Assembly: GCA_019561615.1 (NCBI GenBank)
Contig: JAHEQA010000036.1
Span: 1 to 64,000, forward strand
From: Methanothermococcus sp. SCGC AD-155-E23
Lineage (GTDB): Archaea > AGJL01 > Methanococci > Methanococcales > Methanococcaceae
DNA: 64,000 nt
Direction of reading: 5' to 3'
Position numbers and translations under genes: made by a program. The first letter of the stretch is position 1, and the number at the start of each line of letters is the position of its first letter. Positions 20,068-23,636 of this stretch are shown here, one piece after another. Below the pieces are notes generated by a model. The model made no database searches. It was not told the DNA's origin and was given only the letters and a program-made list of their open reading frames with translations.

Positions 20068-22272
20068 ATGTATGTAAGTCACCCCCTTATAAAACCTAAC
20101 ACCCTAGAATCTAGGACCTATCAGGAGTTAATTGTGGCAAAGGCTCTGGAGAAGAATACCCTCTGTGTCCTAGGTACAGGTCTTGGAAAGACAGTAATAG
20201 CCACCTTGACAATTGCAGGGATACTTTCCAAGAGGGATGGGAAGGTTCTAATTATAGCCCCCTCCCGTCCCCTTGTGGAGCAGCACTACAACAGTTTAAA
20301 GAATTTTCTAAATATCCCGGAAAAGGATATTGTAGTTTTAACAGGGAAGATACCCCCGGAAAAGAGGAAGAAACTCTGGAAGACAGGGAAGGTATTTGTT
20401 GCAACCCCCCAGATAGTTGAAAATGACATTGTGGCGGGGAGGGTACCAGTTGATGACTTCGTCCTCCTCATAGTAGACGAGGCACACCATACTACAGGTA
20501 ATCACTCCTACACCTTTGTAGCCTCCACCTTTAAGGGTAAGGTGAGGGTCCTTGGACTAACGGCATCCCCAGGATCTGATATAGATAGGGTGCTTGAAGT
20601 ATGTGAGAACCTTGGAATTGAACATGTGGAGATAAGAACTCCAGAGGATCCAGATGTAAGGAAGTACGTTAAAACTGTGAAGATAAGAACTGTAAAGGTA
20701 AAACTACCTAGGGAGTACCAGGAGTGTATAGAGTTAATTAGAAGTGCCCTTAAGGAGAGGTTGAAGATACTTAGGGACTGTAAGTTAATACACTCTATCG
20801 TAGTAAATAGATCTGAACTTCTAGCTTTACAGAGAAGGGTTATGGAGATAGAGGGTGAATCTAAGTACCAGTTGATGAGGGTAGTATCTGAGGCCATAAA
20901 GTTGGACTATGCAGTGGAGATACTGGAATGTCAGGGGAGGGATGCATTCCTAAATTACTTCGAGAGACTAGGTAGTCAGAATACAAGATCTGCCAGAGAA
21001 ATTGTAAGAGATCCCAAGGTACTAAAGGCGGTGTACAAGTTAAGGACACTGGATGTAGACCATCCAAAGTTGGACAAACTCCTTGAGATAGTGAAGGATA
21101 TTCTAAGTAAAAATAGGAAGGAGAAGATTATAGTTTTTGCTCAATATAGGGATACTGTAGAGAAGATCGTCAATATCCTCAGGGAGAACAAGATAGGGGC
21201 ACTCCCCTTCATGGGTCAGTCTAACAGGGGAGGTAAGGGGATGTCCCAGAAGGAGCAGATAAAAACCTTGGAGAGGTTTAAGGGAGATGATAGTATAAAC
21301 GTCCTGGTTTCAACTAGTGTATCTGAGGAGGGTATAGACATCACAAGTGTTAACTATGTAATATTCTACGAGCCAGTGCCCTCTGAGATCAGGTTCATCC
21401 AGAGGAAGGGTAGGGCCTCCAGAGGTGAAGGAGGAGAGTGTATAATCCTTATAACTGAGAATACCAGGGATGAGGCTTACTACTGGTCTGCCATACAGAA
21501 AGAGAGGAATATGAAGAGGATACTTAAGGAGATGGTGAAGACGTTAAATAAGAAGTTAAGGGAGAAAAAGGAGGAGTACAGGGGGCCACTAGATGCCTAT
21601 CTAGAGGAGGAAGCTCCTTCTAAGGTTGAGGAGGAGAAAAAACCTAAGATAGTAATAGATCACAGGGAGAAAAATATAGGGAAACTTCTATTTGGGAGGG
21701 CGGAGTTGGAGTTTAGAAATTTAGAGTTTGGAGACTACATACTCAGTGACAGGGTTATTGTAGAGAGGAAGACCTCCGAGGACTTTGAAAACTCCATAAT
21801 AGATAAGAGACTCTTTAAGCAGTTGAAGGAGTTAAAGAATTACGAGAGACCTATCCTGATCATTGAGGGGGATAGATTCGAGAGACTTGAGGAGAAGGTG
21901 ATAAAGGGTGCAATACTCTCCATAGTGTTGGATTATCACATCCCTATAATATTTTCCAAGTCCCCAGAGGAGACTGCAGATATCTTGCTAAAGTTGGCGG
22001 AGAGGGAACAGCTTAAAAATAAGAGGCCTGTGGAGATTAGAACTGGAAAGAAACCTATGTCCCTAAGGGAGAGGCAGAGGTTTATAGTTGAGAGCTTCCC
22101 AGATGTTGGTCCTGTAACTGCAGAGAATCTACTTCTCAGTTTTGGAACTATAGAGAATATAGTCAATGCATCTGAGGAGGAACTTATGAAGGTGGAGGGT
22201 GTAGGTAAGGCAACTGCAAGGAAGATAAAGGAGGTACTTACTGAGAGATATACAAAGTCCCCTACTCCTTGA
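20068..22272 (+). CDS. hef: Hef: fork-structure helicase/nuclease (FANCM/XPF family)
   Basis: This is a protein of about 734 residues acting on stalled replication forks. The SF2 helicase half has GTGLGKT (Walker A), VDEAHH (motif II), LTASPG (motif III) and QRKGRASR (motif VI). It is followed by a charged linker and an active XPF-type nuclease core, [19 protein letters not shown]. The C-terminus has tandem helix-hairpin-helix ([13 protein letters not shown]...[12 protein letters not shown]). ATG 20068 with GGTGAG upstream is preferred over GTG 20059, which lies in the ribosome binding site. Its last 11 bases overlap the convergent marker-15 gene. Confidence 0.95.
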
Positions 22273-23497
22273 AGTACTTGTACCCGGAGGATAGAAGTGC
22301 TGCACCTACTGCACCTATATGCTGGGAGTAAGGTGGAACTATTATTTTCCTACCAAGTATCTCCTCCAGTGCCAACACCATACCCTTCAAGAGGCTACTA
22401 CCCCCTACAAGTATAACAGGATCCCTTACATCCACCTCCTGGAGTTGCTGTTCATATATCTGCTCTGCAACTGAGTGGGCTGCTGCAGCTGCCACGTCCC
22501 TTGGATCTGCACCCTCTGCCAAGGCGGTAACTAGGTCCTGAATACCGAAAACTATACAGTAACTGTTCATCTTGATCTTCCTCCAATCCCCCTCTGCAGC
22601 CATCTCTCCCAACTCCTGGATGGATACCCCTAACCTCCTTGCAGTGATCTCGAAGAATCTTCCACTGGCACCTGCACAGATACCTCCCATGGTGAAACTA
22701 TCTGGTATGGCGTTGTTAAGGGAGATAGCCTTGTTATCCATACCCCCAATATCTATAACTGTTGCCTCCCCCTCCTGCTTATCTGCCAGGAAGGCAGCTC
22801 CCTTGGAGTTCACAGTTAACTCCTCCTGTATAAGATCTGCCTTAAAGTACTCTCCCACTATATGTCTTCCATACCCTGTAGTCCCTATAGTCTCAATATC
22901 CTCCATCTTTAATCCAGCCTCTTTCAGGGCCTCATCTACAGCCTCCTTTGCAGACTCTATAACATCTCTGGTATAGACCCATCCCTTTCCAACGATCTCG
23001 TTATCCACCATAACTACAGCCTTTGTAGTTGTAGACCCACTGTCTATTCCTAGACTTATACCCTCCTGCCTCTTTCTAACTAGGAGTGCCTTCCTCTCTA
23101 CAATAGTTACCAGGGCCTCCATTCTAGTTAACAACTCAGAGGCCTTGGTCCTCTCTGTAAAGGAGTACATAACAACAGGTAGATCTGTATGCTCCTGGAT
23201 AAGTTTCCTAACCTCGTTTCTAACAAGGGCACCCTCTGCACATCTGAAACATGTGGCTATAAATACTGCATCTGCATCTGTGTTTCCCTCTATAATAGAC
23301 ATAGCCCTTGCAAGCATAAGCCTTAAATTTGAAGAGGCTACATCAAAACCTAGCTCCCGGTTAACCCTCTCTATATAGTCCAGATCTACCTCGGGAAATA
23401 TTATCTCCCCTCCAACCTCCCTTGCAGCCTTTTCAATTTCACCTTGCACTCCACTGTACTCAGGACCACAGGTTAACTCCGCAATCTTTACAACCAC
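22262..23497 (-). CDS. Methanogenesis marker protein 15 (BcrAD/BadFG ATPase family)
   Basis: This is a 411-residue protein with an N-terminal CFRC-containing domain (about 1-140) followed by an ASKHA ATPase fold. Motifs are [11 protein letters not shown] (150-160), [11 protein letters not shown] and [10 protein letters not shown] (C274). A second Cys in NSYCIVFG would complete the inter-subunit 4Fe-4S site seen in activators of hydroxyacyl-CoA dehydratases. The family is restricted to methanogens. It is thought to use ATP to reduce or activate a partner enzyme, and links to methyl-CoM reductase activation have been proposed. The GTG start at 23497 follows GGTGAT. Confidence 0.9.
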
Positions 23498-23520: not shown

Positions 23521-23527
23521 TTTATAA
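23521..23527 (+). promoter_or_regulatory. Box A of the C/D box RNA
   Basis: TTTATAA lies about 26-30 bases before the 5' stem of the C/D RNA. This places a transcript start right at the RNA. It indicates that the RNA has its own promoter, divergent from the marker-15 gene. Confidence 0.6.
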
Positions 23528-23552
23528 GTGTGAAACAATAGAAAAATGTCCC

Positions 23553-23612
23553 ACTGCGATGATGAGTGCCGACTTCACTGATCTGTGATGACATCGGGGA
23601 CAGCTGAGCAGT
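23553..23612 (+). ncRNA. C/D box guide RNA (sRNA) for 2'-O-methylation
   Basis: All four boxes are present in order and close to consensus. C box ATGATGA is at 23559-23565, D' box CTGA at 23578-23581, C' box GTGATGA at 23585-23591 and D box CTGA at 23604-23607. The two guide spacers (23566-23577 and 23592-23603) are each exactly 12 bases, the archaeal norm. D' and C' are three bases apart. ACTGC (23553-23557) pairs with GCAGT (23608-23612) to form the terminal stem. A TATA box lies upstream and a T-rich stop downstream. By the D+5 rule the target nucleotides pair with C23573 (D' guide) and G23599 (D guide). The target RNAs were not identified. Confidence 0.93.
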
Positions 23613-23636
23613 TATATTTTTACTCTTTTATAAAAA
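23613..23636 (+). terminator. T-rich terminator after the C/D RNA
   Basis: Immediately after the terminal stem come TATATTTTT and CTCTTTTA tracts, typical of archaeal T-run termination. The minus strand of the same stretch lies beyond the UPF0179 stop. Confidence 0.5.

Follow-up and report, generated by a model that had tools for sequence, protein, structure and literature searches.

The locus and its surroundings

The window, a 64-kb stretch of DNA that was analysed as a whole, carries a compact element on the plus strand at 23553-23612. It sits between two minus-strand genes, which encode a BadF/BadG-type ATPase and a UPF0179 protein. Boxes C, D', C' and D are all perfect, and a 5-bp terminal stem closes the element (Table 1). 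When the sequence was re-read, the boxes, both guides and the stem fell where the original prediction had placed them. The strict four-box pattern matches once in the window and in none of 100 dinucleotide shuffles (mean 0.00). A looser three-box pattern also gives one match, versus 0.21 expected, and 19 of the 100 shuffles contain at least one. Among 29 aligned orthologues, box C (RUGAUGA), box D (CUGA) and the internal C' and D' boxes characteristic of archaeal box C/D RNAs are all present. Judged from its sequence, the element is a canonical archaeal box C/D guide RNA, here in a methanogenic archaeon, and of a kind that is already well known.

Table 1. Features of the RNA and its flanks in the window
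Feature	Position	Strand	Basis and remarks
TATA-like box TTTATAAG	23521..23528		some 28 nt before the RNA; may just as well belong to the divergent gene starting at 23497
5' strand of terminal stem, ACTGC	23553..23557	+	read from sequence; covariation
Box C, ATGATGA	23559..23565	+	sequence, orthologue alignment, pattern scan
D' guide GTGCCGACTTCA	23566..23577	+	position -5 is C23573; predicted to target the 23S G matching E. coli 1670
Box D', CTGA	23578..23581	+	sequence, orthologue alignment
D'-C' spacer TCT (3 nt), k-loop	23582..23584	+	sequence, orthologue alignment
Box C', GTGATGA	23585..23591	+	sequence, orthologue alignment, pattern scan
D guide CATCGGGGACAG	23592..23603	+	position -5 is G23599; predicted to target the 23S C matching E. 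coli 1994
Box D, CTGA	23604..23607	+	sequence, orthologue alignment, pattern scan
3' strand of terminal stem, GCAGT	23608..23612	+	sequence; covariation
T-rich stretch, possible terminator	23613..23631	+	sequence

The RNA was also predicted to have its own promoter, which is plausible. The upstream TATA box stands, but its ownership is less clear. Its sequence is close to a palindrome, and the start codon of the divergent ORF 22262-23497 (minus strand) is only 24-31 nt away, so the box may serve that ORF. A same-strand ORF also abuts the RNA in part of the relatives: at 9 of 30 orthologous loci, all in family f2 or genus g4, an ORF of at least 167 aa ends close to the 5' end of the RNA, from 22 nt upstream to 10 nt downstream of it. 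Only ORFs of 62 and 64 aa end near the 5' end at two further loci, and in G023 a mechanically called same-strand ORF crosses the RNA. The mean TATA-likeness of the upstream regions was 6.7 for the 30 loci (the present one counted and the loci being related) versus 6.17 after shuffling, and none of 200 shuffles reached the observed value. Downstream of the stem, at least 12 T occur within 25 bases at 27 of the 30 loci and a run of at least four T at 26, in genomes that are AT-rich.

Independence from the neighbouring genes holds for this lineage, where both flanking genes lie on the opposite strand. Across lineages the neighbours vary and the RNA persists. Within flanks of about 1.5 kb or less, the ATPase gene was found at 9 of the 30 loci and the UPF0179 gene at 6.

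Conservation within the order

Orthologues were detected at the DNA level in 33 of 61 genomes searched, all within one order (Methanococcales, by the named records). They occur in all 22 genomes of family f1 (the window's genome counted) and in 11 of the 14 genomes of family f2, and the DNA search found none in 25 more distant archaeal genomes. Both guides are present in 33 of the 36 phylum genomes examined, with nearly unchanged sequences in these Methanococcales. Loci were retrieved for 30 of the 33 matching genomes, and most tabulated counts rest on these 30. A covariance model built on 29 orthologues, from an alignment without G012 (59-nt spacer), G017, G020 and G021, gave matches at E ≤0.001 in 35 of the 36 genomes of the phylum; a few of the matches listed are other C/D sRNAs. 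Two of the 35 genomes, G025 and G034, keep the D guide and have a different D' guide. G035, which is 81% complete, has no orthologue at the model threshold, and its weaker matches are other C/D-like RNAs.

The lineages that carry this sRNA include hyperthermophiles and mesophiles. We take G028 to be M. jannaschii, G015 to be M. maripaludis C5, G025 to be probably M. infernus, and genus g3 to be the Methanococcus type. A pattern scan of named genomes returned 16 matches. Ten of them are titled Methanothermococcus, Methanocaldococcus or Methanococci, the two genera both belonging to Methanococcales, and the six bacterial records were taken as chance matches. Outside the order, the covariance model gave five weak matches in 4 of 25 archaeal genomes. 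The four-box pattern could be read in four of these, with different guides, and could not be fitted to the fifth (L189).

The guide sequences of archaeal C/D sRNAs are described in PMC7994747 as evolving at an accelerated pace. The nearly unchanged guides in 33 of 36 Methanococcales genomes contrast with this description. Conservation in nearly all relatives, combined with a natural change at a predicted target, makes this RNA a good test case.

The terminal stem is predicted to bring boxes C and D together into a k-turn. Its sequence differs among orthologues and includes ACTGC/GCAGT, TGTGC/GCACA, AACGC/GCGTT and TATGC/GCATA. Of 120 cells, 97.5% are paired and 25 are changed on both sides, and the covariation score is 0.564; none of 500 shuffles reached any of these three values, for sequences that are related to each other. 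The number of stem pairs with change on both sides was not above that of the shuffles (375 of 500 reach it), nor was the number of further pair types (431 of 500).

The D'-C' spacer varies in some orthologues. In genus g3 (L144, L145, L146, L054, L055, L057 and L058), the k-loop is 11-13 nt long and could form a small stem in most cases. Such stems were predicted by folding in L055, L057 and L058, and GAGC/GCTC and GAGT/ACTC were seen by eye in L144-L146; the L054 spacer folded alone gave no stem. Box D' reads CGGA in three genomes of the same genus. The G012 orthologue (L059, 1499-1614) has a 59-nt spacer with two predicted hairpins, and both of its guides are retained.

None of the Rfam C/D families attains its gathering score at 23553-23612. 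At a relaxed threshold, 28 of the 30 matches listed are C/D-box families, snoPyro_CD being the best by score. The boxes and layout align with snoPyro_CD (RF00095) along the whole model, but the guides differ, and the score of 37.6 bits is below the gathering value of 45. The same is seen for sR1 (RF01152), which scored 33.3 bits against 45, again with different guides.

Predicted targets in 23S rRNA

The similarity of the genome's own 23S gene to that of G005 ends at about position 1754, before both predicted sites, and this gene is the only 23S match in the assembly. Because the own 23S breaks off before them, the target sites were sought in 24 relatives with complete 23S, and the D' counts are based on the 23 of these with an intact D' guide. 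A family search had scored the own 23S as covering the whole model. The last 272 bases of its contig (L001, G000 C32:1-272) are unrelated to the 23S of relatives and contain neither target site. Chance matches in these bases are spaced 140 bases apart, a pattern that hints at either a repeat or an artefact of the assembly.

The original prediction offered the two 12-base complements as target sequences. Exact copies of these complements are absent from the own 16S locus, the partial 23S and 27 tRNA loci. When the 27 tRNA loci were scanned with their flanks, none of the near-matches listed (8 for D' and 10 for D) lay on a tRNA sense strand. The guide length of 12 nt was right, but the conserved pairing with rRNA is shorter, being 10 nt for D' (-2 to -11) and about 9 nt for D.

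The D' guide pairs over 10 bp with 23S GGAA[G]TCGGCA, in which the bracketed base aligns with E. coli 1670. Positions -2 to -11 pair with GAAGTCGGCA in all 23 genomes, with a G-U pair at -8 in five of them, and position -1 is unpaired in 22 and forms G-U in one. The D guide is complementary to CTGT[C]CCCG or CTGT[C]CCGG over about 9 bp, the bracketed base aligning with E. coli 1994. Its positions -3 to -7 form Watson-Crick pairs in 24 of 24 genomes, and position -1 is unpaired in 9 of the 24. Position -8 of the D guide tracks the rRNA (G:C in 15 genomes, U:G in 7 and C:G in 2), which amounts essentially to one event between the two families plus small later changes. The pair at -5 is Watson-Crick in every genome that has the guide (D' 23/23, D 24/24; 23S of relatives).

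Chance matches were estimated in G005. Of 4000 shuffled guides, 1.6% had a D' run of at least 10 in 16S or 23S. A D run of at least 9 in 16S or 23S was found for 6.1% of shuffled guides, and runs of at least 9 in 23S for both guides together in 10 of 3000. The matches in a single genome are thus only moderately unlikely by chance, and it is the comparative pattern, which is unusually clean, that carries the argument for the targets. The original prediction of a C/D box guide RNA at this position is borne out by orthologues across the order, the covarying stem and the complementary rRNA sites.

The two target sites lie 293 nt apart, at positions 1793 and 2086 of the G005 23S, and the rRNA strands there pair with each other in a helix. 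In all 23 parsed genomes the 12 counted positions are paired, with G-U in one cell; G025 was left out of this count, being unparsed owing to its changed target. The helix covaries at four positions in the 23 genomes. The D site is within the 3' strand, and the D' site lies partly on the end of the 5' strand and partly beyond it. We take this helix to be helix 61, which closes domain IV.

Helix 61 is named as a methylation hotspot by Dennis et al. 2015 (PMC4644070). At 293 nt, the two sites fall outside the definition of a 'double guide' in that paper (sites within 100 nt) and within its definition of distant targets (chaperone type), being distant in sequence and close in secondary structure. 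In its Table 3 and text, that paper proposes a chaperone role for such distant-target sRNAs. I. hospitalis sR114, T. tenax sR51 and N. equitans sR15 and sR17 likewise have two guides for rRNA sites that are far apart in sequence and near in secondary structure (Dennis et al. 2015). The sites of sR114 and sR51 are near the same 23S region as those described here, by interpolation of the numbering in that paper, an estimate that implies no claim of orthology.

The most likely role of the RNA is to guide methylation of the large rRNA at two places, each in or next to a different strand of one helix. The product of the locus is very probably a box C/D sRNA about 60 nt long, whose D' guide would direct methylation of 23S G1670 and whose D guide would direct that of C1994, with a possible chaperone role. 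As in the known family, the sRNA would assemble with L7Ae, Nop5 and fibrillarin into a two-armed methyltransferase particle. The D' guide would pair with 23S, and fibrillarin would add a methyl group to the ribose at the G that corresponds to E. coli 1670. The D guide would likewise direct ribose methylation of the C equivalent to E. coli 1994. Since the sites are in, or next to, the two strands of one long-range helix, a single particle could grip both sides before the helix closes. By bridging about 290 nt, the particle might also act as a folding chaperone.

Loss of the D' guide and alternative readings

G025 has no recognisable D' guide at its orthologous RNA, and a scan of its genome for the C-box/D'-guide/D'-box pattern with up to two mismatches gave no match. 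Both of its 23S copies read GGAACTCGGC, with C instead of G where position -5 of the guide would pair. The target G is kept in the other 23 of the 24 genomes, and G025 alone is altered in the core of the D' site. Its 16S helix 44 site is the same as in the other f2 genomes seen. Loss of the D' guide together with a changed target base in 23S argues that the D' guide has a target in 23S, not only in 16S. G025 is a single case, in which the order of cause and effect cannot be set. It is conceivable, at somewhat less than even confidence, that this C/D sRNA has been passed down vertically and retained in nearly the entire order while co-evolving with the two strands of helix 61, and that loss of the D' guide freed the methylated ribonucleotide to change. 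If so, G025 would be direct evolutionary evidence for what guided methylation constrains.

In G034 (L147:1501-1560), the D' guide is replaced by AAGGGTTATAGG. Ten nucleotides of this sequence, position -5 among them, match CTATAACCCT near position 2020 of the G025 23S, a stretch that is also present in the 23S of G028, G024 and G005. The replacement is an apparent guide switch to another site in domain IV. G034 neither supports nor contradicts the pattern seen in G025, because its fragmentary 23S pieces end before the D' site.

Methylation of 16S G1494 was predicted for M. maripaludis by Dennis et al. 2015 (PMC4644070), and the orthologous D' guide of G015 fits this site. The real or an additional target of the D' guide might then be G1494 (E. 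coli numbering) in 16S helix 44, and the RNA would modify both subunits. We consider this rather unlikely. Contiguous pairing of 8-9 bases with helix 44, the first base of box D' counted, was found in 7 of 11 genomes, all of family f1 (G009 with G-U at -8). In contrast, positions -9 and -10 mismatch 16S in all 11 genomes, yet all 33 guides have C and G there, and both positions pair with 23S. Position -1 mismatches 16S in 4 of the 11. In G025, where the D' guide is gone, it is the 23S site that has changed, not the 16S site. The evidence therefore favours 23S G1670, as the predicted D' target, over the published 16S prediction for M. maripaludis. The RNA could act chiefly as a chaperone of 23S folding by bridging the two strands of the helix, with methylation secondary, given that the distant sites lie in or flank one covarying helix and that a chaperone role has been proposed for distant-target sRNAs (Dennis et al. 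2015, PMC4644070). This is unlikely, since the -5 pair is Watson-Crick in every counted genome with the guide, as methylation requires, and since only the D guide is left in G025 and G034, which ends the bridge across the helix there. A chance or decayed C/D-like element without function would agree with the lack of an Rfam C/D family at gathering score, but order-wide conservation, the covarying stem and the retained guides make this highly improbable.

Seven C/D sRNAs are catalogued for M. maripaludis C5 by Dennis et al. 2015 (PMC4644070). They agree with the RNA described here in box sequences, size and spacing, in the terminal stem and the two guides, and in the N-plus-five rule. The orthologue in M. 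maripaludis (G015) is probably one of these seven. In that paper 16S G1494 is given for M. maripaludis and the species is absent from the distant targets of Table 3, whereas the D' guide is assigned here to 23S 1670 and the two targets together span one helix; the full M. maripaludis sRNA list of the paper may hold the same 23S prediction. Among the paper listings and main-text passages covered by a literature search, none describes this sRNA by name or sequence. With the assignment proposed here, the published D' target prediction for M. maripaludis would move from 16S to 23S, or gain a 23S target. Two named nucleotides in culturable species, along with a natural loss in one relative, offer a clean and cheap test.

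Other C/D-like RNAs were also seen. The window's genome has at least two more, L155 (G000 C27:26737-26799) and L151 (G000 C12:4884-4941). The D' guide of L155, GTTACCCCCA, recurs in L150 and L153 of other genomes. L149 (G035) and L154 (G025) represent another C/D-like RNA, shared by these two genomes; in both, exactly or nearly, D' is preceded by GGATTGGCTTT and D by CCGTATGAGCT.
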